Positions 4,331 to 27,841 of a DNA stretch of 41,032 nt are shown here, piece after piece. Below the pieces are notes generated by a model. The model did no database searches. It saw only the letters and a program-made list of their open reading frames with translations, and was not told where the DNA came from. The DNA is from a virus. Each line of letters opens with the position of its first letter. The first letter of the stretch is position 1. Location: positions 1 through 41,032 of IMG/VR virus record IMGVR_UViG_3300046501_000287. One strand, written 5' to 3'. The position numbers and the translations under genes are program-made.

Positions 4331-4381
4331 AAAAAAGCCCTAAGCTATTTAAGCAGAGGGCTTTTGGTGGTTTGTTGAGTA
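4331..4381 (-). terminator. Box-hairpin module before the lysis genes
   Basis: Reading leftward: a box TACTCAACAAACC (4381-4369), then a stem of nine base pairs (AAAAGCCCT / AGGGCTTTT, 4333-4341 with 4357-4365) and a run of six T. The holin start lies about 24 bases beyond. It ends the tail-fibre transcript and belongs to a family of five similar modules in the late region. Confidence 0.8.
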
Positions 4382-5239
4382 TTAAACTATGTTTGTAATA
4401 CCCATGGCGTTCAGTTTTTCTTTAATTTTTGTGGCCTGCTTAAACACTTCACTTGCAGGCAAACATTTGTTGTAAATACAAGATTCTAAAATTTCAAGTT
4501 TTAAATCTGGTGTGGTTGTTCCATTCGCAAAGTTCGTATCTTGTCCAATACGGAAGTTATTAGTATTGCCAAATGATGTAAAACTATTAACATCATTTGC
4601 GTTAAATGGACTTCCAATGGTTTGGTTTGACAATGGCATAAAGAAAGTTACGCCTTTTCCAATAGTGTAATCTGCTGTAAAACCATTGCGCAAAACAAAC
4701 AAAATGTATGGCATAGTTCCACCTACACTACCATTCCATTCGTATGGCACATACTGCCCAGCTGCACTACCAAAGGTTGCCAAGTTACCAGATGACGGCG
4801 TGTAATAGATATTTCCACGCGGCTTAACATTTACAGCACCTGCGGTCGTTACACTACATTGTAAAAAAATACCTTGTCCACGCGATGCGTGAGTCCCATC
4901 CAAATTCCCAAGAACTTGAAGATTAAAGTTTGTAATACCCGCCGCTGGTGCTACTAATGTGTCCACCTTTAAACGAGCAACTACAAATAAAGTTACTTCA
5001 TTATTAAATGTACCAGCATTTGCTGAATAAGCATCTTTATCGTTGTTGCTGATTAAAAGGCCATTTGAGGTTACTTCTGGGGTATTGATGGCTGTCAAAG
5101 TGGCTGTAGGAGTAACAGTTGAGGAAATTTTGTCTTTAAAATTCCAGTTGCCTACTAGTCCTTGTGTCACGTATGGGGCGATATTCGTTAACCCTTTCCC
5201 GCCGAAATCGGCCCCCGGTATTCTAACAATTACTGACAT
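4382..5239 (-). CDS. LamG-like virion surface or tail-fibre-associated protein
   Basis: 285 residues. The sequence is rich in Asn, Thr and Gly with alternating beta pattern, no signal peptide. Features such as GLVGNWNFKD near residue 28 and a terminal EILESCIYNKCLPASEV segment are typical of concanavalin/LamG jelly-roll domains, which bind glycans. The start overlaps the stop of the long tail fibre (TAATG), so the two are made together. A receptor-binding or fibre-tip role is inferred from fold resemblance and position; it could also be a fibre chaperone-like accessory. Confidence 0.6.
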   Translation of the reverse strand: MSVIVRIPGADFGGKGLTNIAPYVTQGLVGNWNFKDKISSTVTPTATLTAINTPEVTSNGLLISNNDKDAYSANAGTFNNEVTLFVVARLKVDTLVAPAAGITNFNLQVLGNLDGTHASRGQGIFLQCSVTTAGAVNVKPRGNIYYTPSSGNLATFGSAAGQYVPYEWNGSVGGTMPYILFVLRNGFTADYTIGKGVTFFMPLSNQTIGSPFNANDVNSFTSFGNTNNFRIGQDTNFANGTTTPDLKLEILESCIYNKCLPASEVFKQATKIKEKLNAMGITNIV

Positions 5240-7746
5240 TAAAGTTCTCCACCATATGTAAAATCAAAAATTAAACACCAGTTATCAAGGCGTACTAATG
5301 CGCCATTGATTTCGGTTGTCTCTTCCTCGCCTGCTTCATCACGCAGATTTCCCCGCGCTCCGTTAATTGGGCTAATAGGTGTCTCGCCATTACCTTGAGC
5401 ATAAGAGATTAAATAAGAAGTGCTTGCATAAGTATCGTTTGCAAGGGTTACGCGTACAGAGTTGCGACCTGTGACTTTGACAGAAGTAATTGCACCAGAT
5501 ACAACTGAATTGTCAGATACATTCCGCAGTAAAAATCCGAAGTTTTCATACGCAGCAACATTTGTTGTATCGATTGTCAATTCACCAACGGGTACAAAAA
5601 ATTCAATATCGATGTTTTTACCAACCCAATTAACAGCAGTCGGATGAAGAGGTTTAAATTTTTTCCCTTCTAGAAATGCCAGTCGCAAAGCGCGAGCATA
5701 ATATGCACCCAGTAACTGTGATGATGTCGCGGTTAAATGTAAATTGTCCGCGCCGTAAGTCATCTGATACATTGCTGTAGCACAAATAACATTAGGGTTT
5801 ATTTGTGAAAGCTTAAATAATGCCTTTGCAACATCAATGTTCCCTGGTCGAACAGTGCCAGTTTGCCGCCATTGGGCTGCTGATTGATATTGCACAACAA
5901 TTGGATCAAATGCTTGTCCAGTAATGGTTTTAATATCTGCAATAAGATCAGTGAACAATGCATTGTGTTGCGAGATATAACTAGGCAATGTCGTATTGTT
6001 CATCATGTTGGCTTCACCCCCAGTCCAGTTGATAAAACCAACTGAATACGGCCAGCCTTGTGCATCTGCTAAATTTTTCTCAGCAGTAATTCGTGCAAGG
6101 GTATCGTTGTAAGGCGCAGTACCTTTTACGAGTTGATCAATACGATATCCTGCCACACCGGATGCAAATGTAGTAAACAGGGAGTTCTGAGGGCTAATGC
6201 CCTTTTTAACCATGTATTTAGTAAGTTCATTAACTGTATTAATACCCGGAGCTTCCCCCTCATTACTGATAGCTTGGGCGATTAAAGGAACAAATGCTGA
6301 ACCATCAAAAGCAGGGTCTGATGAACGACGTAAAACCCCAGACTTAAGCATTAAGTTTGCGAAATTTTGAACAGTTGAGAGTACAGGGGTAGCGTTCACA
6401 CCGCGCGCCAAAGATTGCCCATAATCAAAACCACAACAAATTGCGGTCTTCTTGAAAGGAAGCGACAATGGGTCTAAAGCAGACCGATACAAGGTTTGAG
6501 CAACATTCCCATTGATCTCGACCAAACCGTTTGTTCTGATACCAAAAGATACGTTATAAGCATTGTCAGTGATTGCATACTTATAGTCTTTGTTTTCAAA
6601 ATTCTCAAAAGAAACATTGTTGTTAAGATTTAAACCTGATTCTATTTCCAAGATATCCACCGTTGGTACCACTCTATTTAAAAGAACACTGCCATCGCTC
6701 ATAACCCCAAATCCTGCTACACCGTTTTTATCTTGGATTAAGAATTCGCTGTCAGTACCTGTGCTAACCATCGGTGATTGAGCATTTTGTTCGCCTAAAG
6801 TTTTGTTCAGTGCGTTAAATTTTGTAGATGCAAAATCCTTTGCCTGCTGAAGAGGGTCGTATGGAGATTTTTTTAAAGTGGTACCATCCCAAATATTATC
6901 TCCCTGCGCCCAAAGACCTGAACCAGTGTTTACCTCTCCAATCTTCACAACTGAATTGTTTGGAATGGTTGATTTTGCAGCATCAAATTCAGCATAGGTA
7001 TTAAAGCCATATACCCCACCGCCAAGCGCATTTACTTTATTATTGATTTCATTCTCAGCATTTAAGGCTCTTAAAGCTTCATCCTGAATTTTTTGTAAAA
7101 GATCTGACTCAGCTATTAATGCGCGCTCTTTTTCTTCTGTAATGCCTGATTCAAAGTCAGTTCTGTTTGATTCAAGCATTCCATAGATAATTTCAAGATG
7201 TGTTTGAACACTTTTCTTATCTAAAGCAAAGACAATACCAGCCGTCACACCATCAAAAATATTCGGATTTGATGCTGAATATAAAGTATCAATATAGCTT
7301 TTCAAGCCTGCAAAAACTTGTGCGTCACGCATTTTTGCCAACTCATCAAAATTAGCATCATGTGTGCGTCGCCACTCAATTTCCTCTTTAATTTTTGCAA
7401 GAGTTTCAGCATTAATCATCCCCTGTTCTTGGAGGACATGCCAAATCTTGTCATAGTCATAATTTACTGTTTCAGGACGAAATGAATTATCGTAACTCTT
7501 GTAATCTATATCTCGATTTAAAGTAGTTTCTCGATATAATTCAATCTGATCACCAGATTTTGGCGCAGTTGCAAACACCACTTTTAAAGCATTCATGTCA
7601 ATAACATATGTGCCTACTGCTGGGATCTCTTTATTCAACGTTACAACCAAGTACTCTGGATCATGAAGATCAAAAGTAATGGGAAACTCTGTTGACTGTC
7701 CGTTGGCTAAATAGCCCACATATGGTATTTGCTCTGGTACTGACAT
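5239..7746 (-). CDS. Tail fibre with T7-type N-terminus and putative SGNH carbohydrate esterase domain
   Basis: 835 residues. Residues 1-150 resemble the virion-anchoring domain of T7 gp17. A helical, coiled-coil-rich region follows (about 190-320). From about 433 to 695 there is a hydrolase with the SGNH/SASA blocks: GQS with nucleophile Ser445, WTGGE (574-578) and D667-x-x-H670. Such domains remove O-acetyl groups from sialic-acid-like sugars, so the fibre may deacetylate capsular polysaccharide during adsorption. A beta-rich C-terminal domain (about 700-835) could bind the receptor. The AGGTGG site precedes the ATG. The enzyme call rests on motif order and spacing, not on a search. Confidence 0.8.
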   Translation of the reverse strand: MSVPEQIPYVGYLANGQSTEFPITFDLHDPEYLVVTLNKEIPAVGTYVIDMNALKVVFATAPKSGDQIELYRETTLNRDIDYKSYDNSFRPETVNYDYDKIWHVLQEQGMINAETLAKIKEEIEWRRTHDANFDELAKMRDAQVFAGLKSYIDTLYSASNPNIFDGVTAGIVFALDKKSVQTHLEIIYGMLESNRTDFESGITEEKERALIAESDLLQKIQDEALRALNAENEINNKVNALGGGVYGFNTYAEFDAAKSTIPNNSVVKIGEVNTGSGLWAQGDNIWDGTTLKKSPYDPLQQAKDFASTKFNALNKTLGEQNAQSPMVSTGTDSEFLIQDKNGVAGFGVMSDGSVLLNRVVPTVDILEIESGLNLNNNVSFENFENKDYKYAITDNAYNVSFGIRTNGLVEINGNVAQTLYRSALDPLSLPFKKTAICCGFDYGQSLARGVNATPVLSTVQNFANLMLKSGVLRRSSDPAFDGSAFVPLIAQAISNEGEAPGINTVNELTKYMVKKGISPQNSLFTTFASGVAGYRIDQLVKGTAPYNDTLARITAEKNLADAQGWPYSVGFINWTGGEANMMNNTTLPSYISQHNALFTDLIADIKTITGQAFDPIVVQYQSAAQWRQTGTVRPGNIDVAKALFKLSQINPNVICATAMYQMTYGADNLHLTATSSQLLGAYYARALRLAFLEGKKFKPLHPTAVNWVGKNIDIEFFVPVGELTIDTTNVAAYENFGFLLRNVSDNSVVSGAITSVKVTGRNSVRVTLANDTYASTSYLISYAQGNGETPISPINGARGNLRDEAGEEETTEINGALVRLDNWCLIFDFTYGGEL

Positions 7747-7754
7747 AAAACCAC

Positions 7755-9440
7755 CTAATCATTGAAATCTAAGGCGGCTTCTACGACTCCACCGCTTGTC
7801 CTCCAATTAGGCCGCTCATTCGATTCCATTGTTCTGTGTAATTTTCCGACTCGTTCAGGTGAGTCAGTAATTGCACCAGCCAATGAGTCCATTTCATCAT
7901 CTTCTTGTTCAGTAATAGCGGGATTAAACGCACCAAATTTTTTATAAATAGCCGAGTTATTTTCACCACCTTCGGGCTTATCAATAATTGATGTATGAAC
8001 CCACAATAGGCCAGACAATAAAGGGCCTTCCAATGCATCCAAAATGCGTTTATTTTTGGGTTTTGTATTGTGCTTCTCAGTTACACCACATCTTATTTTT
8101 CTTGCCTTAAGTGCGCCTTTCAATGCGGCAGGCGCAAAGCCTCCAATTCCGTTTGTCTCAATAGTTACTTTTGGAATATGAAACTGCTCTATCAGATCGC
8201 ATAATTGCCAGACCTGACCGCCATTAATATGCCCATTATCATCGTGCTCAACTACAGGTCCAGTCAAACTAAAGGATCTATGCCAGTACTTGTTACCAAA
8301 ATCATCATGAAGAACTAAAGCTGTTGAAGAAATATCTGATTTGATTTTTCCTGATGAAGGATCCCATTGGAATGTAATACCAACTATCTGACGCTCTCCA
8401 AGCATCATAATGTATTGACCATTTGCACGGCGTAGTATTGGCTCGCAGTTGTAGGGAATCATGAAACTAGGATCAAGACGCACATCACCAACAGGCTTAG
8501 CATGCATTTGATATTGTGAATCCCATTCATTTAAGGTTTTACATTCTTCACGGCGGGCTTCCATTTCTTCAGGTGTAAAGCGTTCAGCCCAAATACCTTC
8601 TGAATAGAAATCAACAATAAAGCTAGGATTCTTAAGGACGACTTTAAACAAATCTCCCGATTTAAAGCATTCATAATCCTCATCTCTATGAAGATATTTC
8701 GACCCCTCACCAATTCCAGAAAAAGCATGTACTGGTTCAAAATTTAGAGTGTAGACTTTATCGGCCTCGGCCTTTTCTATTCGTCTTTCATGTTCAAACA
8801 TTTTTAGCACCAATACGCTTACTTTTCTTAGCTTCTTGATTTCGTCATACAAGGAATCATGTGCGTGCGGAGTTCCTATCCAGAGCTTTTTTGCACCAGG
8901 AATAGCAATGTGTGTTTGCTCTGATAATCTAAAGCGGAGTTTCTCTCGCTGATCTGGTGTGCCTGTGGTTTTTGGTGTCTCCACATCATCATTTTGAATA
9001 AATGTGGCACGGTGACCAGTTACACCTGAAAGGATACCTTTTGATAGCATAGTTCCGTAACGGATGTCTTTTGAACCTTGAACCCACCAGCGTTCAGTTT
9101 CACCACTACGGCGCTTAACCAACTCATTGCCCACACAAAGTGGGTGATTTTCAAGGACGTTTTTTGTACCATTTGAACATTTAAATGCATCTGGATCTGT
9201 CGTCCCTTGATGCAAAATCATAGTTTGTTCTGGCCAGCAATAAATAACCCATGCGTTAAACACATCCAACATGCTTGATTTAGAGTGACCACGCGGCATC
9301 ATCAATAAGGCAGTACGCCCATTGATATACCAGTACTCTAAGAACTCACAGACGCGAACATGAAAATCAGGTACTTTCCAGCCTTGAAATTCTGCCCACA
9401 GTAAAAAGAATGCGAGAAAACTAATTTTGGGTTTTAGCAT
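7755..9440 (-). CDS. terL: Terminase large subunit
   Basis: 561 residues, the length of T7-type large terminases. A Walker A-type loop PRGHSKS (49-55) and a Walker B-like ATFIQNDDVE (145-154) identify the packaging ATPase; a C-terminal region with Asp residues (WDPSSG near 350, later LEGPLLSGLLW) fits the RNase H-like nuclease. It would pump and cut concatemeric DNA at the portal. The ATG overlaps the stop of the upstream small gene (TAATG), as for TerS-TerL pairs. Unlike many phages, terminase lies at the end of the virion genes, close to lysis, as in T7. Confidence 0.93.
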   Translation of the reverse strand: MLKPKISFLAFFLLWAEFQGWKVPDFHVRVCEFLEYWYINGRTALLMMPRGHSKSSMLDVFNAWVIYCWPEQTMILHQGTTDPDAFKCSNGTKNVLENHPLCVGNELVKRRSGETERWWVQGSKDIRYGTMLSKGILSGVTGHRATFIQNDDVETPKTTGTPDQREKLRFRLSEQTHIAIPGAKKLWIGTPHAHDSLYDEIKKLRKVSVLVLKMFEHERRIEKAEADKVYTLNFEPVHAFSGIGEGSKYLHRDEDYECFKSGDLFKVVLKNPSFIVDFYSEGIWAERFTPEEMEARREECKTLNEWDSQYQMHAKPVGDVRLDPSFMIPYNCEPILRRANGQYIMMLGERQIVGITFQWDPSSGKIKSDISSTALVLHDDFGNKYWHRSFSLTGPVVEHDDNGHINGGQVWQLCDLIEQFHIPKVTIETNGIGGFAPAALKGALKARKIRCGVTEKHNTKPKNKRILDALEGPLLSGLLWVHTSIIDKPEGGENNSAIYKKFGAFNPAITEQEDDEMDSLAGAITDSPERVGKLHRTMESNERPNWRTSGGVVEAALDFND

Positions 9441-9754
9441 TAACTAGCCCGAACTCGCTCTCTTAGCTGTTGCGCTTTTAATTCAGCGTCTGCAGCTAGT
9501 TTCTTTTCGTAAGCTTCCTGTGTCTCTCTAGTCTTACTAACAGGGTCGATGGTCCCCCGCTTAAATGCTAAGACACGTTCAATTGTTGCCAATACGCCAG
9601 CAGTATCTTTCGAGATTTTATATAAGAAGCCCTTATCCCCTCGCCCTTGTTTAGTTGCAATTGTGGTGTTAATAGCAGCACAAGTTGTGATAATAAAATC
9701 ATCAGCAACTTCTTCTGCTAGTTTTTCCATTGATTCGACTTGATCATCACGCAT
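9440..9754 (-). CDS. Putative terminase small subunit
   Basis: 104 residues, mostly helical, ending in a charged helix (EAYEKKLAADAELKAQQLRERV). No helix-turn-helix can be proven by eye. The assignment comes from position and overlap directly before the large terminase, size near T7 gp18 and a basic middle segment (KQGRGDKGF, FKRG). It would recognise phage DNA and regulate TerL. The start follows a hairpin whose 3' arm contributes the AGGGGG ribosome binding site, so its translation may be coupled to hairpin opening. Confidence 0.65.
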   Translation of the reverse strand: MRDDQVESMEKLAEEVADDFIITTCAAINTTIATKQGRGDKGFLYKISKDTAGVLATIERVLAFKRGTIDPVSKTRETQEAYEKKLAADAELKAQQLRERVRAS

Positions 9755-9812
9755 AAAAAATCCCCCTATATAAACAACTTATAAGGGGGATTAAATTCAG
9801 GTTTGCTGTGTG
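9755..9812 (-). terminator. Box-hairpin-start module before the terminase genes
   Basis: Reading leftward: box CACACAGCAAACC (9812-9800), a stem AATCCCCCT / AGGGGGATT (9784-9792 with 9759-9768), six T and the ATG at 9754. The only good ribosome binding site, AGGGGG, lies in the 3' arm of the stem seven bases from the ATG. The element has terminator form but may also gate translation of the small terminase. Confidence 0.75.
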
Positions 9813-9822
9813 GTTTACATCT

Positions 9823-10128
9823 TCACGAATAGCACTTTAGCGCCGTACCCTGTATAACCACTCTGCCCGCTGGCAAATTGCTCCGATATGTAATAACTGC
9901 GGAATCTGCCCCATATTTATCTTTTGCAATTCGTTTAAATTCTGAATCAGCTTTATCAGCAAAGTTAAAAGGATTGCCCCGCGTATCAGTATTAATTGGC
10001 CCTAACTTTTTACAGCCATTAACCAAAGTACTATCGCTATCAAGTAATTGAACGCTTGTGTCACGTGGAACTGACGCACAAGCGACCATTGAAATACATA
10101 TTGTTATTAAACTTAAAGCCTTAATCAT
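9823..10128 (-). CDS. Small lipoprotein, DUF4156-like
   Basis: 101 residues. A signal peptide with lipobox (SMVACAS, Cys17) precedes a mature domain with paired cysteines (NGCKKLGPI near residue 39 and LKC near 99) and the pattern of DUF4156 outer-membrane lipoproteins. The ATG overlaps the end of the 1055-residue ejection protein gene (4 bases), so it is co-expressed late. Homologues are mostly chromosomal envelope proteins of unknown role. In a virion gene block it may modify the envelope of the infected cell, for example by superinfection exclusion; this is inference. Confidence 0.75.
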   Translation of the reverse strand: MIKALSLITICISMVACASVPRDTSVQLLDSDSTLVNGCKKLGPINTDTRGNPFNFADKADSEFKRIAKDKYGADSAVITYRSNLPAGRVVIQGTALKCYS

Positions 10129-13100
10129 TCTACTACTCTCTCAAAATTAGGCGCTCTAATATCATCGATATCATCACCCCAGAAGCGTTCACGATCTTGT
10201 TGGCGCTCCGCTTTTCGTAAAGCTTTCTCTCGATAGCCGGGGGCAATGGTGTCTTGAATCTCATCAAAGAACATACGATTAATTGCCGCTTTTGTATACC
10301 ACAAGTTCTGTGCTGGTATTTTTCCTTTCACAAATTTAAAGGCTTCGTTGCCGAAATTTGTGTCTTTCCCTTCATTGTACTGTGTGAGATTACCAACAGT
10401 TAAACCAAGCAAAGAAGAAAAATCACTACCAAGCGGGCCAGACACAAACGAGTTTGCATCACGACCAGAAGTATCAGTACCAGCAACCAGAATATCGCCA
10501 AGCACTGGTAAACCTCCACCAGCAACAAGCGAACGCATGAAGAAGCTGCTTGCCTTTTTAGGGTCACTGCTGTCATAAACTGTTTGCGGGTCATTACCAT
10601 TTAGTAATTCACGTAACTGAACAACAAACCCACCGAGTAAGGTCATAGTTACAGCTAAAGGGATGCCATACGCAGCTTTACCCTTTAAGCCTTCTTGGGC
10701 CATGGTTCGACTACCTTGACGCATCAAGAATGACGCGGAGAAAGATTTAAACTGCATCAAACCTTTTGTCACTTCACCTGTAATGGTTCCTTTTGCACCT
10801 ACTTGCATCCATGTACGTTCACGAAGCCCTGCCTCAATTACTGCCATGCCCTGCTCATCAAGTAAGTGCGCTTGAAGCTGTGAAGCTACTTCATCCTTAA
10901 TTTGTTTTGCTAGAAGCTGCTTTTCACTATCAATACTATCTGTTAAACGTTGCGAAATAGCGTTTCTTCTAGCTTGTCTTTCGTTAACTTTAGACTGATA
11001 TTCATTAAATTCTTTATCTAGATCATTTACCTGTTTATCTAGATCTTTATATTTTTTTGAAATTGTTTTATTGGCTTCGCTGTCAGCCTTTCGCATTCTT
11101 GCTCTAAGCTCTGTAATTCTACGCTCACTGTTACCTAGACGGTATCCTAAAGATTCTGCATTGTTCCCAAACTGACGCGCATTACGTTCTACATTTTTAC
11201 GTGTATCTTGCGCCACTTTGTCAGAATGTCGCCCTTCTTCAACTTGTTGAAGAAAGTCTTGAACCCTATTAGCCTGTTTTTCTGCCTGCAAGTATGTATT
11301 TATATCTGCACGAGCTTTGGCATATTCTTGTTGAGCATCTAGTAAATCAATACGATCTTGTAAAGCCTGCTTCTCTGCCTGTGCTTTATTGTCTTTACGA
11401 TTGGCGTAATCTAAAAGACGTTGAGACAATTGGCGCTTAATCTCATCATTGCGTTGTGATTTGTTCGCAATGCGCTGGTCATCTAAAGCGTTACGACTAT
11501 CAAGTTCTTTAATTTGACTATCGATATTATTTACCAGAGTTTTAACATCACTATCCATTGTCGCTAGTAACTTTTCATCTGGAATTTCATAGATAGAACG
11601 AGCTGACATTAATTGATTTCCCTTGCGGTCCACAACTGGGTCAGCCAATTGAAATACCTGCCAAGCACGTTCATTTAAACCAGTATTTGAAAGCAATTCA
11701 CGATCTTGTGGATCTAAATCATTCCATGATTTAGAGCGGCTTAAACGTCCGTATTTCTCCATAAGAAGCTTAGTAAATCCAACTTTTGAGGCAGAAGTAA
11801 GAGCATTTAAAAAAGATACTCTCATTACTTGTGTTGCAACACCACTTGATATGCGAGCCAATTTTTCAGATTTACCATGTGTCGAAGTCAGCCCATCGTC
11901 TGACCAACGTGCAATTGAGCCTAGCATTTCCTCTGTTGCTAAACCTAAGCTGTGCGCAAGTTCTCGATCTGCTTTATTGGCTGGGTTTAGCTGCCCGATT
12001 AATTCACCGAAAGCCTTGCGATAAGATACATCATGCACACTAGCAGTTTTAGCAATAGTGGCCTGATCGGCAATCGATGCAATTGTGGTGCCGCCCAACA
12101 TGGAAGCAACATTCATTGATCGATATGCAAGACCTAAGTTTGCAAGCACTTGAGACTGAGGGGAATTGCCCCCGCTAAACTCATCAAACATGACCTGTGC
12201 ACGTTTACGAGATGATTTAGTTTTGTTGTCTTCAATCCCTTTTTCCCAGTCTTTATTTGCTGCAACATCCATTAAAATTTTTAATGCTGTTTTTGGATTG
12301 CTTCCTAAGTTTTCTACCATTGCAATATCTTTGGAAAGTCCATTTACATGAGCTTCTACCAGATCCACAAACTGCATGCCGCCGAACTCAGATTGATATT
12401 CAAGCCATGCATCGGCATCTTTAAAGTGTAGAACCCGACTTTCACCATGGCGATTAGTCACTTTTGATGTGCCCGCACCCGTAGCTTGCCTGCCTACTTC
12501 AATTTTGTTTGCACCATCACTTGATAGCGTATCGTAGGTATATTCCAGCAGTGAGCGTATTTCTTGCTGTGAGTAGTAATCACCGTTCTCATGCACGTAT
12601 TGGCGTGTATCAATCAGCGATTCAGATTTACTTACCCAAGCTTCTTTACCAGCCTTGGCAATTTTTTCTAGATTGTGAGTTTGTGGCAAACCCCAATTAT
12701 CTAGCTTTCCAATGTCGCCCCCGTTCCGGTTAAAACGGTCACGCATGGCTTCAAAAACATCGCCCATCTTATCGCTAATTTTTTTGGCTAACGGGTCGCC
12801 TGTATTATCGCCGAAACGCTCACGCACAATTTTATGCACTAATTCTTGATCTGTGAAAATTCCTAAACCGCCTTTAATATTAGTATAGAAATCCACGAGT
12901 TCACCGCGATAAATTGAAGCAATACCACGCGCCTTTGAATCAATAGATTGAATCCCCGACATATCCCCATGAGCCGCAACCATACGGTCTACAACTTCCA
13001 TTGACGAAAGCCTGCCATGATCCAATGCTGCAATATTTTGGGATTGTTTAAGGATGTCTTGAGCTGCAATTTTATGTTTGCGTTTTAATTGTTCTTGAAT

Positions 13101-13292
13101 GTCGATAGCAACTTGCTTTGATGCCTCTGTTAGTTTTTCAGCATCTGAAAGATTGCGCCACTTATCACGATCCTTACGCGCCATACTACGCATAGTTTCA
13201 TTAATGCGTGCTTCGATGTCTGTTGCTTCTTGAGCTGTGAGGGATTGTTTGCCTAGCGCCTTAGCTACAGCTTGTTTGCATTGTTCTTTCAT
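10125..13292 (-). CDS. Large internal virion (ejection) protein
   Basis: 1055 residues, strongly helical, with a long coiled-coil centre (about 550-850, rich in Gln, Lys, Arg and Asp, e.g. QLSQRLLDYANRK). A hydrophobic segment follows (GIPLAVTMTLLGGFVVQL, about 910-927). Size, composition and place next to two other internal proteins match the large inner-core proteins of T7-like podoviruses (gp16 class), which are ejected and span the envelope. The lytic domain is on the neighbouring 954-residue protein instead. The ATG directly follows a hairpin and U-run. Confidence 0.75.
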   Translation of the reverse strand: MKEQCKQAVAKALGKQSLTAQEATDIEARINETMRSMARKDRDKWRNLSDAEKLTEASKQVAIDIQEQLKRKHKIAAQDILKQSQNIAALDHGRLSSMEVVDRMVAAHGDMSGIQSIDSKARGIASIYRGELVDFYTNIKGGLGIFTDQELVHKIVRERFGDNTGDPLAKKISDKMGDVFEAMRDRFNRNGGDIGKLDNWGLPQTHNLEKIAKAGKEAWVSKSESLIDTRQYVHENGDYYSQQEIRSLLEYTYDTLSSDGANKIEVGRQATGAGTSKVTNRHGESRVLHFKDADAWLEYQSEFGGMQFVDLVEAHVNGLSKDIAMVENLGSNPKTALKILMDVAANKDWEKGIEDNKTKSSRKRAQVMFDEFSGGNSPQSQVLANLGLAYRSMNVASMLGGTTIASIADQATIAKTASVHDVSYRKAFGELIGQLNPANKADRELAHSLGLATEEMLGSIARWSDDGLTSTHGKSEKLARISSGVATQVMRVSFLNALTSASKVGFTKLLMEKYGRLSRSKSWNDLDPQDRELLSNTGLNERAWQVFQLADPVVDRKGNQLMSARSIYEIPDEKLLATMDSDVKTLVNNIDSQIKELDSRNALDDQRIANKSQRNDEIKRQLSQRLLDYANRKDNKAQAEKQALQDRIDLLDAQQEYAKARADINTYLQAEKQANRVQDFLQQVEEGRHSDKVAQDTRKNVERNARQFGNNAESLGYRLGNSERRITELRARMRKADSEANKTISKKYKDLDKQVNDLDKEFNEYQSKVNERQARRNAISQRLTDSIDSEKQLLAKQIKDEVASQLQAHLLDEQGMAVIEAGLRERTWMQVGAKGTITGEVTKGLMQFKSFSASFLMRQGSRTMAQEGLKGKAAYGIPLAVTMTLLGGFVVQLRELLNGNDPQTVYDSSDPKKASSFFMRSLVAGGGLPVLGDILVAGTDTSGRDANSFVSGPLGSDFSSLLGLTVGNLTQYNEGKDTNFGNEAFKFVKGKIPAQNLWYTKAAINRMFFDEIQDTIAPGYREKALRKAERQQDRERFWGDDIDDIRAPNFERVVE

Positions 13293-13352
13293 AAAAAATG
13301 CCCAGATAATTTTAGCTATCTGAGCATTTAATTTGTAGGGATTTGTTGGGTA
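13293..13352 (-). terminator. Box-hairpin-start module before the large ejection protein
   Basis: Reading leftward: box TACCCAACAAATC (13352-13340), then a 13-bp stem with one G-U pair (13317-13329 with 13296-13308), a U-run and the ATG at 13292 with no further spacer. The GGGC of the 3' arm is the only candidate ribosome binding sequence. It is a terminator-like structure abutting a start codon. Confidence 0.75.
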
Positions 13353-13364
13353 ATGAAATTGAAG

Positions 13365-20260: not shown

Positions 20261-20262
20261 GA

Positions 20263-20712: not shown

Positions 20713-20714
20713 GG

Positions 20715-22784
20715 TTATCTCTCGTTGATCGATAGTTGCATGGCTATAGCTTGCAAGTGGAAAGGTAAAGGTTTGTTGTGTGTTATCTTAATTGGCACAG
20801 AGTGAAGGTCTTCCCACGTACCACCTTCAACTAAATAGAAACCAGTTTTCGGCTTTTGTGAGTCCATCGGTGTGCTATCAAAGGTGAATAGTTCGATAAG
20901 TTCATCATTGAGTTCAGCGGCCAGTGTTTCATTAAAGAAAAATGCCGTTCGATCAACTTTTGCTTTAAATAGCATTGATGACAAAGGGTTTTGACTTAAT
21001 TCAGGCGGGAACAAAACAGCTTCACTACGAATGGTTTGACCATAATTTATTGTTTGACCTACCATGTGCTGAAACTTCATTTCAGTTTCAGTTTCCGCGA
21101 AACTTACATAAAATATCGATTCACCATCGATCTGATTTACAGCTAGATCTTTCAAATAAGAGAAAGAAGATTTGCTTAAAGTGTTACCAGCCAAAGTTTC
21201 TGTACGCTGTGAATCTAGATAAGCATCGAAAGTAACTTGCTCTAAGCACATTGTATCGTTGCGATTAACAAGCATGAAACAAAGGTCAGAACCCAACCCA
21301 GTCGGCACAGAACACATGCTTTTAACAGTGCCGCCAAAGTCCTGATTTGCCCATGCAATTACTTCTTGATCACGATTGAAAGTAATTGATGCAACCTTTC
21401 CGTCACCAAGCACACACCAGACAATGCTTTCAGGTTCTTGCTGATAGCAGACTTCACTGATACCACCATGCGCTTTTCCAATGTGAGAAGATAAAGCACT
21501 AATCTCTGGCGTTACCAAGCCGTCAACTTCATAGCGATAAGACAGTGCCCGTACACGACCACCGCCACGCTGAATAAACAGGATCTCATTCCCGACACGG
21601 CAAGGGCGGGTCAAAGGATATGTGCCAATAGCCGAGTTTTCATCAATGTTTACCGTGGTAGGAGTTAGTGCCCCATCGCTACTTACAAGGTATTCACCGC
21701 CAGAAGTTAAGCAGACAACACCGCGTTGGGCTTCAAGAAATAAAATACTATTGGCTAGACCAGATGCAGACACGACACTGAAAGCATCCCCATCATCTGT
21801 GGTTTCGAGAAAGTTAGCATTCCCACCAACCGCGCTAAACCAAATTTTATTAGGCGCTTTTTTAGTATTAGCCAAAACTAAACGTTGCTTGAAGTACATG
21901 CAGCATCGTGGGTAACCATCTATGCTATTGAAAGCTGGTGGCAATATAGACCATGCTCGTTCAATGGCTTTGATATCTGACTCAAGTTTTACAAGTACTT
22001 CGCCATTGACCTGATTTGCCCCCACAAACTCAGTGATTTTGATAATGCCGCTGTTTACGTCAATAAAGCTTCCAACATCTGCAACTGTAAAACCGCTTGT
22101 ATCGGTTGTAATCTCAACCCAATATGTCGGTGATATATCAGGTTGATGGCCTGCACCATCTTTGAGTGCTTGATATAACTTGCCACTATAGCTAATAACA
22201 TCGCCGACCAAATAAGTTGTTATCTCTACCCATGCGTTAATATCATCCAAAATAAAAGATACAAATGATCCAATATCCTTACCTGAAGGCGTGCCTTTAC
22301 GGAATGGACTTCTAGCACTTTCAGAGTCTGTCGGCGCATTGGTATAAACAAACTCGCTAAACTCCCAGTTACTAAAATCTGTAGAGCTGCGGAAACGTTG
22401 TACAGGCACATCATTGTGAGTAAAAAACATCTCATAGCGATACTGTACAAACTGTAATTCTGGTATTTGATCCGCTGTATATGGTGTTGTTACCGTTGCA
22501 ACGACTGCATTTGTTCTTGGGTTGTATATATCAATTGCTAATGGCTTCAAAATAAGCATGAATGCTTTATCTGAATTAACAACAAACGGAATTAAACGAA
22601 CTGCATTTTCATACAGATTCACAAAAAACGTGCCTGGTCTTTTCCGGATCCCACCTTCAACAAGTGGTATCACATTTAGTAATTTTTTAGCGCCGTTTCC
22701 ATACTGTTGAATGTCTGTGCGCGTGTACAATGTTGGAGATAGTTCACCGGCACTGAAATTATTTTTGATGACATGCTGTTTCAT
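20715..22784 (-). CDS. Tail tubular protein B (nozzle) with carbohydrate-binding-like insert
   Basis: 689 residues. The N-terminus carries NNFSAGELSPTLYTRTDIQQY, the signature of podoviral tail-tube B or stabilisation proteins, followed by RKRPGTFF. A beta-rich body fits the propeller-like nozzle of the short tail. Near residues 180-225, YLVGDVISYSGKLYQALKDG followed by PTYW resembles CBM5/12 chitin-binding modules, suggesting a surface-exposed glycan-binding insert. The start overlaps the stop of the adaptor gene (TAATG). It would form the distal tail tube. Confidence 0.87.
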   Translation of the reverse strand: MKQHVIKNNFSAGELSPTLYTRTDIQQYGNGAKKLLNVIPLVEGGIRKRPGTFFVNLYENAVRLIPFVVNSDKAFMLILKPLAIDIYNPRTNAVVATVTTPYTADQIPELQFVQYRYEMFFTHNDVPVQRFRSSTDFSNWEFSEFVYTNAPTDSESARSPFRKGTPSGKDIGSFVSFILDDINAWVEITTYLVGDVISYSGKLYQALKDGAGHQPDISPTYWVEITTDTSGFTVADVGSFIDVNSGIIKITEFVGANQVNGEVLVKLESDIKAIERAWSILPPAFNSIDGYPRCCMYFKQRLVLANTKKAPNKIWFSAVGGNANFLETTDDGDAFSVVSASGLANSILFLEAQRGVVCLTSGGEYLVSSDGALTPTTVNIDENSAIGTYPLTRPCRVGNEILFIQRGGGRVRALSYRYEVDGLVTPEISALSSHIGKAHGGISEVCYQQEPESIVWCVLGDGKVASITFNRDQEVIAWANQDFGGTVKSMCSVPTGLGSDLCFMLVNRNDTMCLEQVTFDAYLDSQRTETLAGNTLSKSSFSYLKDLAVNQIDGESIFYVSFAETETEMKFQHMVGQTINYGQTIRSEAVLFPPELSQNPLSSMLFKAKVDRTAFFFNETLAAELNDELIELFTFDSTPMDSQKPKTGFYLVEGGTWEDLHSVPIKITHNKPLPFHLQAIAMQLSINER

Positions 22785-23347
22785 TAGTAGCGTGACTCCA
22801 TAAGTCGTGAGGAGTCATTAGCAGCAAAGTCTTGCGCTGGTCGCTCTTGTCCATTGATTGCACGCGCTTGTTTGAGCATATTTCTAAGCTCTTGCCATGC
22901 CTCTTCACCTTCTGCGCTACTGCCTGTGATTGGTTTGGCAAGCTTTCTAACGAGATATAGCGCCATACACTCACTAAAAAGTGAATCCCACATTTCTTCG
23001 TTTTGCTCATCTGCTACATAAACAAGATTAATCAGGGAAGTGTTAGCAAGGATGTGACGGCTCTCAACCTCATATTCGACTTCCCCAGCGTCATACACAC
23101 GAATAAAATCACGTGGTAAAGGGAAAGCATGTTGATAACCAAATGATGGATGTGTTGATACTGGTGCCAGTTGTACACGACGCTTAGCGAATGACCATGG
23201 ATGCATACGCAATAAGGCTTTACGTGTTGGGGCGTATAGTGCTGCACAACGCCGTGCATTCTCAGTATTTTCTTCAAATGAAGAGATACCTTTAGCGCCC
23301 AGCATCCCCAAAGCCTGATTGCAAATGGTGATGTTTGTAGTTGTCAT
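22784..23347 (-). CDS. Tail tubular protein A (head-tail adaptor)
   Basis: 187 residues from ATG 23347. The sequence ICNQALGMLGAKGISSF, then LYAPTRKALLRMHPWSFAKRR, is characteristic of T7 gp11-type adaptors, which ring the portal and attach the nozzle. An upstream TTG (23365) would lie in the hairpin and is unlikely. No separate ribosome site exists; CGGG in the hairpin arm is the only candidate. It starts the tail block after the capsid terminator, as in T7 where a terminator also follows the capsid gene. Confidence 0.87.
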   Translation of the reverse strand: MTTTNITICNQALGMLGAKGISSFEENTENARRCAALYAPTRKALLRMHPWSFAKRRVQLAPVSTHPSFGYQHAFPLPRDFIRVYDAGEVEYEVESRHILANTSLINLVYVADEQNEEMWDSLFSECMALYLVRKLAKPITGSSAEGEEAWQELRNMLKQARAINGQERPAQDFAANDSSRLMESRY

Positions 23348-23408
23348 AATAAAAAACCCGCTCAATTTTGATTATATTGAGCGGGTTTCAGGTAGGGTTT
23401 ATTGTGTG
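23348..23408 (-). terminator. Box-hairpin-start module after the capsid gene
   Basis: Reading leftward: box CACACAATAAACC (23408-23396), a perfect 13-bp stem (23376-23388 with 23354-23366, 9-nt loop), a U-run, then ATG 23347. This is the strongest hairpin in the window and a classic intrinsic terminator for the capsid transcript. A start codon is placed nine bases beyond the stem. Confidence 0.88.
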
Positions 23409-23427
23409 TTAAAACAGCACTAATAAA

Positions 23428-24333
23428 TTAAATTACAAAGTCAAACGCTACGACTTTTTGTTCGCTTGCACGACCAGCCGCCATTGAAGTAACACCACCA
23501 ACTTGGCTAATGTTCTTTTTGTCTGGTCGTTTAGAGATATCAAAGCCTGTGATATCTGCATCGCCAAAGTGAACGGCCGTACTGGTATACATACAGCTAC
23601 GACGCTCTGTCGCTCCACCAGCACCGTTGTTTAATTTGTTGTAAGGAATCCAGTTAAGACCTAACCATTTTCCTGAAACATCGCCTTCTTGAAGCATCTT
23701 AACTGCCATGTAGTCAGCGCTCATGAATTGTGTTTCAGACAACAACAATTCCATCATGCGGCTGTTATATGTAACGTTAAGTACTTCGCCGTTATGCTCA
23801 TCGCACTCATTTTCACGAAAAAGAGCTTTTGCCTTAAGCAACTGTTGTTTCAATGTGCCAAAACTCGAAAGAATAATCTGACTTGCAGGCAAAGCAACTG
23901 TAGTTGTTGACTTAGCACCAGCATCATTCACAGTGGTACGAGTTACACCACCAATTAATGCTTGATAAATAATGTCGTCAACTTTTCGGTTACGAGCACT
24001 AATCAAATTTTTCATGTATTTATCGGTTGGATTAGCCTTTAACTTTGGCAAGTCACGACTTTCAATCGGGATAAATAAATCAAAATCTGTCATTAATGCT
24101 GTACGCACACCAGCATCAGGAATTGTCCATGTGGTATCACCGAAACGCGAGCCAGAAGCCTGCATTTCAACTTGTCCCATGTCGTTAATAGTGAATGATT
24201 CACCTTCAATTTTCCCACGGTTTACTGCTGTTCTCAGTAATCGTGATTCATTTTGCATTGCTGCAATTTCGTACGTGTTTGCATACTGAATTACAAACGC
24301 CGACGTGATCTTATTCTCATTTACAATAGGCAT
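23428..24333 (-). CDS. Major capsid protein
   Basis: 301 residues. An N-terminal arm (MPIVNENKITSAFVIQYANTY) is followed by a long helix region and alpha-beta domains consistent with the HK97 fold used by podoviral capsids. It directly follows the scaffold gene and precedes a strong terminator, the usual place of the capsid gene in T7/BPP-1-type phages. The ribosome site AAGGGG is strong, as expected for the most abundant virion protein. No decoration or frameshifted long form is seen. Confidence 0.88.
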   Translation of the reverse strand: MPIVNENKITSAFVIQYANTYEIAAMQNESRLLRTAVNRGKIEGESFTINDMGQVEMQASGSRFGDTTWTIPDAGVRTALMTDFDLFIPIESRDLPKLKANPTDKYMKNLISARNRKVDDIIYQALIGGVTRTTVNDAGAKSTTTVALPASQIILSSFGTLKQQLLKAKALFRENECDEHNGEVLNVTYNSRMMELLLSETQFMSADYMAVKMLQEGDVSGKWLGLNWIPYNKLNNGAGGATERRSCMYTSTAVHFGDADITGFDISKRPDKKNISQVGGVTSMAAGRASEQKVVAFDFVI

Positions 24334-24343
24334 GCTCTACCCC

Positions 24344-25027
24344 TTATTTGTACTGCTTTTGATGCCAGTTTTGAACTTGCGTATAGACACGTTTGTGGTC
24401 GGGATGCTTTTCATCCAGATACGCATCTGATGCCATCAATGATTGAATATCTTCACCACCGCTTTGCTGTGTATTAGAAGGCGGTGTATCTTCTTGAAGT
24501 TGCTGACCGAAGTACGCGGCCATTTTTAAAACGAGTGGGTTATTGCCAAACTCAGGGCTGTTAACTTCTTCTGGTGTCAAAATGCCGTTCTGAATTACGT
24601 TCTGTGCGGCAGCATGAGCAAAACCAAAGTTTTTATCTGTATCGCCCTGCCAGACTTCCTTCATTGCCTGTACGCATCCCTCAGCATCTAATGCGGCGGT
24701 CTGCTCCATAAGCTTCGGCAATAACTGGCTATATTCACCAAGCAAGAAATTTAACTTTTCACCATCAAAACCAGCGGCACGTGCACGCTCTAAAAACTCT
24801 TGGTTTTCGGGAATGGTTTTAAATTCGTCAAAGTCAAAACCTTCGATATCGACTTTGTAATCATCGATAGATTCAGGAACTACAGAAGGCTGTTGTTGCT
24901 GTTCTTGACCGCCCTGATCACCACCCTGTTGAGTTGTAGTGTCTTGACCACCACCCAAAGCAGAAGTTTGAGTCTGGGTTTGGGTTTGCTCTTGGTTGTC
25001 TTCTGTTTGAATATTTTGATCAGTCAT
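24344..25027 (-). CDS. Scaffold (capsid assembly) protein
   Basis: 227 residues. The first 55 residues are a low-complexity Gln/Thr/Gly tract, followed by an acidic helical region (SIDDYKVDIEGFDFDEFKTIPEN). A basic C-terminal helix (HPDHKRVYTQVQNWHQKQYK) follows, the typical capsid-binding end of scaffolds. The place between portal and capsid genes fits T7 gp9. It would direct procapsid assembly and exit before DNA packaging. The Gln-rich DNA is slightly repetitive. Confidence 0.87.
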   Translation of the reverse strand: MTDQNIQTEDNQEQTQTQTQTSALGGGQDTTTQQGGDQGGQEQQQQPSVVPESIDDYKVDIEGFDFDEFKTIPENQEFLERARAAGFDGEKLNFLLGEYSQLLPKLMEQTAALDAEGCVQAMKEVWQGDTDKNFGFAHAAAQNVIQNGILTPEEVNSPEFGNNPLVLKMAAYFGQQLQEDTPPSNTQQSGGEDIQSLMASDAYLDEKHPDHKRVYTQVQNWHQKQYK

Positions 25028-25031
25028 TGTC

Positions 25032-25592
25032 TTATTCCTTGTAGTTCGGGTTATTAGCCTGATTAATGTTGTTTATGATGAAGTTGATAACGCTTTGTGA
25101 GCCAAGCCTGTAGCACGTCTCACGCTCTCCACCTTTGTCATCTGGTACAAAAGCGTCTTTACAAAAGACCATGGTTAAGTGCTCAAGTACGCGCTGGCCG
25201 TTTACATCCAAATCAAATAGATTTCGGTACGTTTCAGAGGTTGCACGCTTCATGCGTTTTAGTCGTACAAAGTTGCCTTGCTCTTCTGTTTCTTCTTCGG
25301 CTTCTTCGTTTGGTGGTGGGTTTGAAAGCTCTAAAATTTCCTGCTTTAGATAAATATTTTTTTGTTCTAAAACTTCTGCACGTTCCCACTGTTCAAATCT
25401 TTGTGCTTCAAGTTTTGAAACTTCATCTAAAGCGTTGTGCCACTTACCCTCTAGCTCAACCTTGGTATCAAGATGCAATCGGTTTTCATCCCAATATTTT
25501 TCTTCAAGAATTACTAATCCACGGCGCTGCACAAACAGAGCAACACACGCGATAAACAGCAAAATAGAAAGAACCGCTATACCTATAATCAT
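25032..25592 (-). CDS. Membrane-anchored protein with C-terminal Bbp19-like domain
   Basis: 186 residues. The N-terminus is a membrane helix (residues 2-23, IIGIAVLSILLFIACVALFV), followed by a coiled coil (about 30-100) with an acidic stretch. The last 70 residues (YRNLFDLDVNGQRVLEHLTMVF to SQSVINFIINNI) resemble the small Bbp19-type phage proteins that are normally encoded alone between portal and capsid genes. This looks like a fusion of that domain to a spanin-like membrane stalk. It overlaps the portal stop (ATGA). The function of Bbp19-type domains is unknown. Confidence 0.7.
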   Translation of the reverse strand: MIIGIAVLSILLFIACVALFVQRRGLVILEEKYWDENRLHLDTKVELEGKWHNALDEVSKLEAQRFEQWERAEVLEQKNIYLKQEILELSNPPPNEEAEEETEEQGNFVRLKRMKRATSETYRNLFDLDVNGQRVLEHLTMVFCKDAFVPDDKGGERETCYRLGSQSVINFIINNINQANNPNYKE

Positions 25593-27235
25593 TGCATTAC
25601 CTCAGTACCTAATTGACCGCCCATGCTCTGTGCTAGTGCATCGCCGCCTTTCTCCAAAATGGTTTGTTGCATTGCTTGTTGTTGCTGTGCTGCTGCCTGC
25701 TCTTCTTTGGCTTTTTGACGAGCTTTGCGAAGCTCTGCGACTTCTTCCGTTGTACGCATGATGTTTTGTGGTACGCCTCGGCCTGTGCCTGTAACCACTG
25801 CTACGGCATCAAAATCGATGTTGTCTAAAATGGTCGGCTCTACATTCGCCATCTCGCCAACACTTGCAACAAATTGTTCTGTTGCAATCACTTCCTCTAG
25901 ACGCTGTGAACGAGCTAACGGCGATACAAACTTGAATGACAGATTGCGGCCTAACAGCTCTTGTGGTGGCTGTCCTAAAGCGCCTGCACGTAAAGCCAGA
26001 CCAAAGCAACGATCGAGAATTGAAATCAAATATTCAGTTTGTAGACGTCCATACATCGGCCCAAGCATTTGACGGATTAATTCAACGCGTGTGTGAATCT
26101 CAGTTGCTGTCATCTGCTGTGTGCCAACTGGCGGCAACTGGTCAGCCATAAGCTTTTTGCGAATACCGCCTTGCAAGTTGGTTAGCAGATATTCAGAGAT
26201 TTGAAAGTTAGTGCCGTCATCTAGACGTTTCATAGAATCGACACTATTCGCAATAATGACTTTGCGCGGCCCTATACGAACTGTATGCGGGTTTAATACG
26301 CCGTCATCTTCTGCAATCCACATCCCGCCAATTTGTAGGTCTGCTGCACGAACTGTATTTTTCATAAGCTCGTTAGCCATCTTCGCGTCAGGCAACGCGA
26401 TAGTCATTTGACCATTGCCATAATTAGAATTAGGCAAACGGCGCAAACGTGGAATAGCGCACGGGAACTCATGAAAGCCTGATTCTTTCAGGATTTGATT
26501 GTTGTCTACATCGATGTGATATGAAGCAAACGGCATTGATTTATTAAGCTGTCCAGCGCCCTTTTGCTTTCGTGGTTCAATTACATGCAAAAGCTTAAAG
26601 CGTGTGTCTGGCGCTGTACGTGCCATTTGAATAACGTGTAAATGACAGTTTTCTTCACCATAAGTATTAATCATGGCTTCGGCTGTCATCTCATGTTCAC
26701 GGTAAATCGTATCGATCTGACCATCTGCACGAGTTGAAGCAATGAAGCAGTTACCTGGATGCCATGATTCAAATACATAACCGCCGCCAGCTTCTCTATC
26801 GATGTCGGTGTATAGAATCCCCCAGCCTGCTGTAACGATATCTGTGACCGTTTCAAAGCTTTCACTATCAAAGTTAGCAGCATGAATATTGCGCCAAATG
26901 AATTGACACACGTCCTCAAGCCAGCGTTCGCCCTCTGTTAGCTCTGATAAATCATCAATCCCATCAGGCTGTGCTTTAAACCAAATAGCATTGGCTGGGG
27001 TAACTCCATTCATAATCATTGACGTAAGCACTTGTACAGAATCGGACGCCGTAGAGTCGTAAAGGTCTGCGCGCTCATTCTCACGCTGACCTTTGTTATC
27101 GCTTGTAGAACTAAAGTTTTGCTGACGTTCAGGCGCTCCGAACTTGTAGCATTCAGACCAATGTGATTCATGAATAGATCGTTCAAGCCGTAATTGGCCC
27201 AAACGACGACAAAACTTTTGAGCGCCGTTATCCAT
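25589..27235 (-). CDS. Portal (head-tail connector) protein
   Basis: 548 residues, the length of T7 gp8-like connectors. It contains RSIHESHWSECYKFGAPER near the N-terminus, LTSMIMNGVTPANAIWF, and a C-terminal Gln/Ala-rich helix (RQKAKEEQAAAQQQQAMQQ), all typical of the podoviral head-to-tail connector family. Twelve copies would form the DNA channel at one capsid vertex and dock the terminase. The start overlaps the upstream small gene (TAATG). Antisense reading frames over this gene are shadows. Confidence 0.9.
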   Translation of the reverse strand: MDNGAQKFCRRLGQLRLERSIHESHWSECYKFGAPERQQNFSSTSDNKGQRENERADLYDSTASDSVQVLTSMIMNGVTPANAIWFKAQPDGIDDLSELTEGERWLEDVCQFIWRNIHAANFDSESFETVTDIVTAGWGILYTDIDREAGGGYVFESWHPGNCFIASTRADGQIDTIYREHEMTAEAMINTYGEENCHLHVIQMARTAPDTRFKLLHVIEPRKQKGAGQLNKSMPFASYHIDVDNNQILKESGFHEFPCAIPRLRRLPNSNYGNGQMTIALPDAKMANELMKNTVRAADLQIGGMWIAEDDGVLNPHTVRIGPRKVIIANSVDSMKRLDDGTNFQISEYLLTNLQGGIRKKLMADQLPPVGTQQMTATEIHTRVELIRQMLGPMYGRLQTEYLISILDRCFGLALRAGALGQPPQELLGRNLSFKFVSPLARSQRLEEVIATEQFVASVGEMANVEPTILDNIDFDAVAVVTGTGRGVPQNIMRTTEEVAELRKARQKAKEEQAAAQQQQAMQQTILEKGGDALAQSMGGQLGTEVMQ

Positions 27236-27420
27236 TAGCCACCGCCTAACTTAGTTTTAGTTGCTGCGCCACTATCAGGTGTCAAAGCTGAACCTAAAGC
27301 GCTGGTCTGGTTTAGAGTGCGACGCTGTGCTTTTTTTGCATTGGTTTCAGTCACAGCCTTTTGAGCTGCCGCCGCCGCGTCTGCTTCTGGATCTTGTCGA
27401 ACTACTTTTCCGCCGCACAT
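27235..27420 (-). CDS. Small virion-operon protein
   Basis: 61 residues beginning MCGGKVVRQDPEADAAAAAQKA and ending in TKLGGG. It is Ala-rich helical with a Gly-rich end and has no membrane segment. Similar tiny genes precede the portal gene in related podoviruses, but I know of no role. A GAGG site precedes the ATG, and its stop overlaps the portal start. This strongly supports translation. Confidence 0.75.
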   Translation of the reverse strand: MCGGKVVRQDPEADAAAAAQKAVTETNAKKAQRRTLNQTSALGSALTPDSGAATKTKLGGG

Positions 27421-27422
27421 AA

Positions 27423-27776
27423 TTAACCTCGCGTCCAGCCCTTAGGGCTTAGGTAAGGTGTGCCAGCTTGTACCGTTTCTATTGGCGCAATAGCTGCGTC
27501 AGATGGTTTTGTAGCTTCACGGCGCAATTGGCCTTTAAGTGCTTGGTTGTTCGCTTCTGATGCTGCTAGCTGCTGACGTAATTCTTCAATCAAAGCCGCA
27601 TGATCAACCGTTGATTCTGCATCTGACCCAGTGTCGCCAGATTGAGTTTGTGTTTCGTTTGGCGTTGTGTCTGCTGGCTGCTGCTCAGTTGTTTTAACTT
27701 CATCATTTGACTTAGTTTCATCAACCGTTGATTCAGGTGCGGCACCCGGTGTTTTAACTTGTCGATTGCTAGCCAT
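27423..27776 (-). CDS. Disordered acidic protein, first gene of the virion operon
   Basis: 117 residues. Residues 1-60 are low-complexity Thr/Glu/Gln/Asp, then a coiled-coil segment (ALIEELRQQLAASEANNQALKGQLRR), then a tail ending SPKGWTRG. Such proteins at the head of podoviral virion operons are of unknown role; assembly factor or minor virion protein are possibilities. The start is immediately downstream of a hairpin and U-run, with GGGG in the 3' arm as candidate ribosome site. Confidence 0.7.
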   Translation of the reverse strand: MASNRQVKTPGAAPESTVDETKSNDEVKTTEQQPADTTPNETQTQSGDTGSDAESTVDHAALIEELRQQLAASEANNQALKGQLRREATKPSDAAIAPIETVQAGTPYLSPKGWTRG

Positions 27777-27841
27777 AAAAAAGCCCCATTCGTTGTGAAT
27801 AGGGCTAGTGTTTGCTGTGTGATATTTAGATTTGCTGTGTG
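27777..27841 (-). terminator. Box-hairpin-start module between early and virion genes (two boxes)
   Basis: Reading leftward: two copies of the CACACAGCAAA box (27841-27829 and 27821-27809), a stem AGCCCTATTC / GAATGGGGCT (27797-27806 with 27782-27791, including a G-U pair), six T and ATG 27776. It divides the early leftward genes from the virion genes. The doubled box is unique to this site, where late-gene control would be expected. Confidence 0.78.

Follow-up and report, generated by a model that had tools for sequence, protein, structure and literature searches.

Putative conditional terminators marked by a conserved A/C-rich box at late-gene junctions of an Acinetobacter podoviral prophage and its relatives

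In riboswitch-like terminators, one hairpin both ends transcription and hides the Shine-Dalgarno (SD) sequence. The lambda nut site contains boxA, CGCTCTTTA; lambdoid morons are cargo genes with terminators at gene joints; and stoperators are asymmetric 13-base-pair (bp) sites that have a role in transcription regulation and a sequence common to the repressor operator. Stoperators of L5-like mycobacteriophages are mentioned in the accessible text of PMC3203893, which also describes the SAS and ESAS elements of cluster K mycobacteriophages, short asymmetric repeats that lie mostly in one orientation and whose function is unknown. Here we analyze a viral DNA of 41,032 nucleotides (nt) (IMG/VR record IMGVR_UViG_3300046501_000287, positions 1 to 41,032, referred to as the window), in which five modules, each a short A/C-rich box followed by a terminator-like hairpin, divide the late genes into blocks. 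The box is conserved at the same junctions in related phages, and the modules might be conditional terminators.

The window is a prophage of the Acinetobacter podoviral type with epsilon15-like tail genes (per the Piluca annotation), and is matched by Acinetobacter phage MD-2021a contigs, by Alcaligenes phage Piluca and, over a short stretch, by Acinetobacter TPWB-05. Its late genes are on the minus strand, as are all five modules. A sequence-only reading of this DNA had proposed five hairpin and U-run modules, and direct reading of the minus strand found all of them in place. The order is the same at each: stop codon, box, A/C-rich spacer, hairpin and T6. The T6 run is separated from an ATG by 0 nt in the modules at 9755, 13293 and 27777 and by 3 nt in the module at 23348, and in these four the sole SD-like sequence lies within the 3' arm of the hairpin. 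At 4331, T6 is followed by ATT. The features are listed below.

27830 to 27841, minus strand: box, distal copy CACACAGCAAAT, at the first late-operon junction; position filled in 10/10 distinct relatives listed.
27810 to 27821, minus strand: box, proximal copy CACACAGCAAAC, at the first late-operon junction; a duplication that few relatives have.
27782 to 27806, minus strand: terminator hairpin AGCCCTATTCACAACGAATGGGGCT, with the SD-like sequence of gene 27423-27776 in its 3' arm (UGGGGC).
27777 to 27782, minus strand: T6 run, abutting the ATG at 27776.
23397 to 23408, minus strand: box CACACAATAAAC, at the junction from capsid to tail protein.
23355 to 23387, minus strand: terminator hairpin whose 3' arm is SD-like; T6 at 23351-23356 and, after 3 nt, ATG at 23347.
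13341 to 13352, minus strand: box TACCCAACAAAT, at the junction from cargo to the ejection-like protein of 1055 amino acids (aa).
13297 to 13328, minus strand: terminator hairpin; T6 at 13293-13298, ATG at 13292.
9801 to 9812, minus strand: box CACACAGCAAAC, at the junction from cargo to the gene preceding the large terminase gene.
9761 to 9790, minus strand: terminator hairpin with SD-like 3' arm GGGGGA; T6 at 9755-9760, ATG at 9754.
4370 to 4381, minus strand: box TACTCAACAAAC, at the junction from tail fibre to lysis.
4335 to 4363, minus strand: terminator hairpin; T6 at 4331-4336, next ATG (about 24 nt on) at 4307, with its own separate SD-like sequence.
20771 to 20782, minus strand: exact CACACAACAAAC outside the system, in the coding end of gene 20715-22784 (THNKP), with no hairpin.

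Apart from a lipoprotein in the ejection-protein block, the functions that had been assigned to the blocks fit the PHROGs matches: head-tail adaptor and major head protein; tail proteins; the 1055-aa virion structural protein; terminase large subunit and tail fibre; and endolysin. The modules have the GC-rich stem and directly following U-run of intrinsic (Rho-independent) terminators, and, taken by itself, the terminator part is very probably what its structure suggests. A simple terminator scan of the window reported one of the five modules (27782-27806), and no curated RNA family in Rfam matched the modules up to E = 1.

Within the modules, CACACARCAAAC is exact only at 9801-9812 and 27810-27821, and the remaining boxes differ from it by one mismatch (27830 and 23397), two (4370) or three (13341-13352). 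The third exact copy, at 20771-20782, is coding, and relatives encode T/S-H-N-K-P or S-L-N-K-P there. Across the whole window the box word is not enriched (13 hits with up to 2 mismatches versus 9.1 expected; 11 of 100 shuffles reach 13). The summed match in the 45 nt before the five stems was reached by none of 20,000 random draws or 20,000 shuffles, with the caveat that the box was defined from these very copies. As this last statistic is circular in that sense, the real test lies in the relatives.

Loci were fetched without use of the box: the window, three phage records with DNA similarity over 24 kb, and L007 to L180, found by protein similarity. Among 209 distinct contexts with a stem score of at least 17 in which the hairpin and T5 are followed by ATG within 6 nt (10 of them from the window and the three records), a box with up to 2 mismatches was present in the 70 nt upstream in 176, versus 13/209 in shuffles that preserve base composition only. 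The antisense box was found at 1/209. Other strong hairpins with T5 or more and no near ATG were boxed in 39 of 235 cases (7 when shuffled), mostly at the lysis junction of the 4331 type. Earlier box profiles had used rows with up to 3 mismatches, so that their conservation was partly selected; this filter was dropped for 129 distinct contexts with a hairpin at the five sites, 115 of which match the box within 2 mismatches. In this profile, nine box columns carry 1.2-1.8 bits and three weak ones 0.6-0.8 bits, compared with 0.0-0.5 bits in the 12 preceding columns and 0.0-1.0 bits in the spacer, in which the C immediately 3' of the box is exceptional in being conserved. The consensus in relatives is YACMCARYAAAnC. 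The sequence-only reading had described the box as conserved: this is borne out at the homologous gaps of the relatives, with a frequency far above that in shuffled sequence, while the copies in the window are degenerate and not all alike.

When a viral collection was scanned with box..TTTTTATG, 79 and 46 stretches matched, with a hairpin in 54/62 and 30/39 distinct ones, and hits of box..TTTTTTATT had a hairpin in 39/45; a control pattern with the box reversed gave 36 stretches, 13 of them distinct, with a hairpin in 1/13. The possibility of a host-wide element was rejected, as host genomes hardly have the box. The pattern box..TTTTTATG occurred in 6 of 99 genomes, and six of its seven places were hairpin modules by eye; two host genomes had 6 exact boxes each, 4 of these 12 within prophage modules.

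To locate the modules among the genes, upstream regions were surveyed for 19 late proteins, using distinct regions from the box-independent loci. Box and hairpin were present upstream of the first late gene in 8/8 regions, of the tail gene following the capsid gene in 32/58 (neither in 14, including distant phages), of the ejection-like protein gene in 39/59, of the gene preceding the large terminase gene in 40/47, and of the gene at the holin position in 5/11, where a box, with or without a hairpin, was counted in 9/11. Before the 14 other late genes, hairpins were found in 0 of 549 upstream regions. With box-fetched loci added, the values became 10/10, 44/72, 43/65, 44/51 and 7/14, and 0/630 for the other genes. 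Upstream of the GNAT gene, 44 of 50 regions contained box-like words without hairpins, which are coding. Upstream of the tail-fibre gene fiberN, hairpin-less box-like words were seen in 17/66 contexts, adjoining the terminase gene end.

Stem tallies, SD pairing, distances and insert open reading frames (ORFs) were taken from all loci, box-fetched ones included. At the tail site, the same stem steps read C-G, G-C, U-A or A-U among 37 distinct hairpins; these stems were found by a pairing rule and so show retained pairing, not independent covariation. At the ejection-protein site, 97.4% of cells are paired versus 28-41% when slid, and both sides change in only 2 of 13 pairs, which 99 of 500 shuffles also reach. 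Thus stems vary while pairing is kept, in agreement with the earlier view that the modules are not copies of one terminator. The best match to the anti-SD sequence lies in the 3' arm and ends at a median of 7-8 nt before the ATG, with UGAGGG, CGAGGG, GGGGGA or UGGGGC as SD-like sequence and the weaker UGGGC/UGAGC at the ejection protein. On this basis, the terminator is at most junctions probably fused to the ribosome-binding site (RBS) of the next gene.

The box and this fusion can be separated. In siphophage TRS1, 2 of the 11 annotated terminators shown (out of 14) are boxed and 9 are not. One boxed terminator (L319, 8521-8610) is followed by T7-ATG opening a 9-codon frame, MPEIQANTG, before a Rha-like gene. 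At this Rha site and at the holin sites, boxed terminators lack an adjacent gene start, which ties the box to the terminator and not to the start codon. Conversely, a hairpin-T6-start codon fusion (0-3 nt) occurs in two Vibrio phages (L320 and L321, 2 of the 14 Vibrio records counted) and in Acinetobacter ABMM1 (L322). Similar hairpins of the AGCCCTAT...GGGGCT type with T6 precede a gene in these three and in Pasteurella Pmp4 (L323), and none of the four has a box in the 100 nt shown upstream. The RBS-terminator fusion and the box are therefore separate traits.

Because the box is conserved, biased to one strand, present with or without an adjacent SD sequence and absent from other terminators of the same phage, we favor the following explanation, tentatively and with slightly less than even confidence: the modules are conditional intrinsic terminators at cassette junctions, and the box is a putative single-stranded RNA site for a trans-acting factor that sets termination or read-through. 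Each module would be an intrinsic terminator standing between the last gene of a block, often exchangeable cargo, and the core gene that follows. The G-rich 3' arm would double, at three or four of the five joints, as the SD sequence, with the U-run as the spacer between SD and AUG. The core gene would then be off twice, since either the transcript ends just before the AUG or the SD is paired, and it would be on only if polymerase reads through and the hairpin opens. As little room is left for a promoter, transcription of the core genes would have to cross the hairpins, and lytic growth would presumably need read-through. The box, almost only A and C, might serve as the landing site of the factor that decides between the two outcomes, and with a common factor all late blocks and cargo would respond together.

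Several points weigh against this explanation or limit its support. No known antiterminator was recognized among the genes scanned with Pfam, NCBIfam and PHROGs. The best candidate for a late regulator is a helix-turn-helix protein of 138 aa (30601-31017, minus strand, 3' of the RusA gene) with matches in 79 loci and a PRAR motif near the N-terminus that is invariant in 37 aligned members. This protein has the look of a DNA binder, and its matches do not include TRS1, a phage with two boxes. Its predicted structure (mean pLDDT 77) gave a best Foldseek E of 0.48 and a best Z of 7.3; the matches listed cover residues about 40-113 (the helix-turn-helix) and include no Q protein, which is no evidence against any kinship. 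The rows in all of the above counts are related by descent. Where a stem was found 3' of the box, the box end lies at site medians of 35-48 nt from the U-run, this distance varies less than that from box to stem base (standard deviation 3.4 vs 4.4), and spacer length is anticorrelated with stem-loop length (r = -0.62), an argument in favor that is weak with only five site classes. The SD-like sequence is fully paired in 9/10, 37/39, 39/41 and 24/38 leaders at four sites, versus a mean paired fraction of 0.45-0.71 at nine other late genes, which is in favor; however, these leaders were preselected for box and hairpin, and the high pairing is partly built in. Terminator 3' arms are usually G-rich, which may account for part of the SD likeness. 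The case for RBS fusion is weakest at the ejection-protein site, where the SD-like match is poor (median -2.4 kcal/mol). At this same site the module is dispensable: in 14/59 contexts the two core genes abut with neither box nor hairpin.

The box might instead be a passive spacer that binds no factor: an unstructured A/C linker to hold the terminator away from the ribosome at the stop codon and to prevent misfolding. This is unlikely. The box consists of C and A, with G nearly absent; G makes up 3% of the stretch before boxed stems but 20% before strong hairpins that lack a box, and the box itself is mostly unpaired (0.73 vs 0.45), in a comparison whose unboxed hairpins take in distant, more GC-rich phages. 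At four sites the gap between upstream stop codon and box has medians of 0-6 nt; before the first late gene its median is 12 nt. Site medians from stop codon to stem base are 19-38 nt. According to the accessible part of the study of Li et al. (PMC4824070), who used a coupled E. coli reporter, terminators are suppressed by a ribosome close to the stop codon, and full termination needs a distance of more than about 27 nt. As the medians straddle this value, partial, translation-tuned termination without any factor is a real possibility. However, a spacer needs no fixed sequence, yet the box columns are far above most of the neighboring spacer columns. The box is also kept where no same-strand ORF of at least 35 aa ends within 70 nt upstream (5/41 TerS and 1/9 holin sites), and the nine unboxed TRS1 terminators manage without it.

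A role in translation is rather improbable; here the 30S subunit would load at the box, as a standby or enhancer site, before entering the hairpin that hides the SD. The pairing of the SD-like sequence at four sites, the distance from box 3' end to ATG (mostly 45-55 nt at the four sites with a nearby ATG) and the largely unpaired state of the box would all suit it. However, the holin site has a box although its SD is separate, the TRS1 Rha site has one although its ATG opens just a 9-codon frame, and the hairpin-T6-ATG fusions of the two Vibrio phages show none.

Recombination is another explanation, in which box and hairpin are shared homology for swapping cargo, tail-fibre and lysis cassettes. 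The modules do stand at joints between variable and core genes. Among the module contexts at the ejection-protein site, 8 lie in a gap of 30-150 nt and 29 behind an insert of at least 150 nt, and the inserts are diverse (with ORFs called mechanically, 40 inserts at this site have 37 different largest ORFs, and at two other sites 45 inserts have 38 and 39 inserts have 25). In same-site pairs, 338 share the right side and differ on the left (383 including box-fetched loci), none shows the reverse at the same thresholds, and 14 (21 including box-fetched loci) have the same left and an intermediate right side. The module therefore travels mostly with the downstream core gene and marks the joint of cargo exchange. 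Two loci, L260 and L261, share the cargo end and the box, beyond which their hairpins differ, and at the holin site the neighboring genes vary on both sides while the module stays, siphovirus TRS1 included. Against shared homology as the reason for the box, the spacer beside it diverges while the box does not, the box has a single orientation relative to the U-run, and pairing is kept through changes of stem sequence, which points to RNA structure. We regard this explanation as quite doubtful. As to cargo itself, an opposite-strand small secreted or membrane protein is annotated between the ejection protein and terminase genes in terminase-site inserts (L003 9018-9161, plus strand; L001 35228-35371, minus strand). 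In 11 terminase-site inserts there is an ORF whose start, KTLILAAILALPATMTFAG, resembles a signal peptide; it is a candidate for lysogenic conversion.

It is very improbable that a host small RNA targets the box through a G/U-rich seed, as GcvB does its C/A-rich sites. The GcvB target motif resembles CACACAACA, and one weak-match locus (L405) has a 9-nt complement of the box core, which lies outside the match. None of 41 host-group genomes had GcvB above the cut-off, however, and GTTTGTTG was found in 0/4 weak-match loci, so GcvB is not supported as a partner of the box. Neither is Aar, a small RNA of A. baumannii whose seed is CUCC according to the available text of PMC12802169. Finally, a late promoter or activator site in DNA, among the roles first proposed for the box, can be practically dismissed: TATAAT-like words do occur in some loops (as in the 23348 module), but by eye no -10 stands at a fixed spacing from the box across sites, the promoter scan of the window gave fewer hits than shuffles and no promoter-like pair in the modules, and with the ATG directly after the U-run a start there would give an almost leaderless RNA.

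Outside the modules, a tRNA gene is present at 39491-39564, and near the opposite end of the window, at about 2950-3060, a similar tRNA-end sequence stands before a terminator; these are probably the attachment sites of the prophage.

Returning to the conditional-terminator explanation, a stronger form of it would be a terminator-local antitermination code common to Acinetobacter temperate phages, in which one factor reads the A/C box before selected terminators. This stronger form is speculative and, in our judgment, unlikely. In it, a single switch would open all late blocks, free the hidden SD and control the parked cargo. In any case, a defined RNA element with natural variants and absences provides a handle on how late genes of prophages are kept off and turned on, and it bears on how cargo joins a virion operon without breaking the operon. 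If a factor reads the box, the module would represent antitermination control of a new kind, in a genus with phages of practical interest, and a portable terminator/RBS part.

No description of boxed terminator junctions was found in the literature searched, subscription journals being largely outside its reach. Like stoperators, the boxes are asymmetric sites with a possible role in transcription regulation; no box with up to 2 mismatches is present at 33325-33391, the cI-cro gap, where the operators are assumed to lie. The likeness to riboswitch-like terminators is the use of one hairpin for termination and SD pairing; the difference is that here there is no aptamer, and a short linear box precedes the hairpin and is repeated along one operon. 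Lambdoid morons and boundary sequences likewise combine cargo with terminators at gene joints; the present terminator stays with the downstream core gene, exists without cargo in some relatives and is boxed. SAS and ESAS, as described in the accessible text of PMC3203893, likewise have many copies per genome before gene starts, include some inverted repeats and are nearly absent from hosts. However, SAS holds an SD core, typically 3-7 bp from the start, at non-structural genes (same source), whereas the present box lacks an SD and ends mostly 45-55 nt upstream, beyond a U-run hairpin, at late structural genes. The combination of boxA and boxB that characterizes lambda nut is not what the modules contain; they have the consensus given above together with a U-run hairpin. 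With SAS and ESAS, the nearest described systems are the processive antitermination systems of lambda Q and AlpA, where, according to the available part of PMC7969949, intrinsic terminators also precede late or lysis genes and are to be bypassed by polymerase; their sites are located in the promoter, between -35 and -10, whereas the present box is located at each terminator. Should the antitermination code be real, the recognition site would thus lie at every terminator to be crossed, unlike in the promoter-loaded Q or the nut systems.

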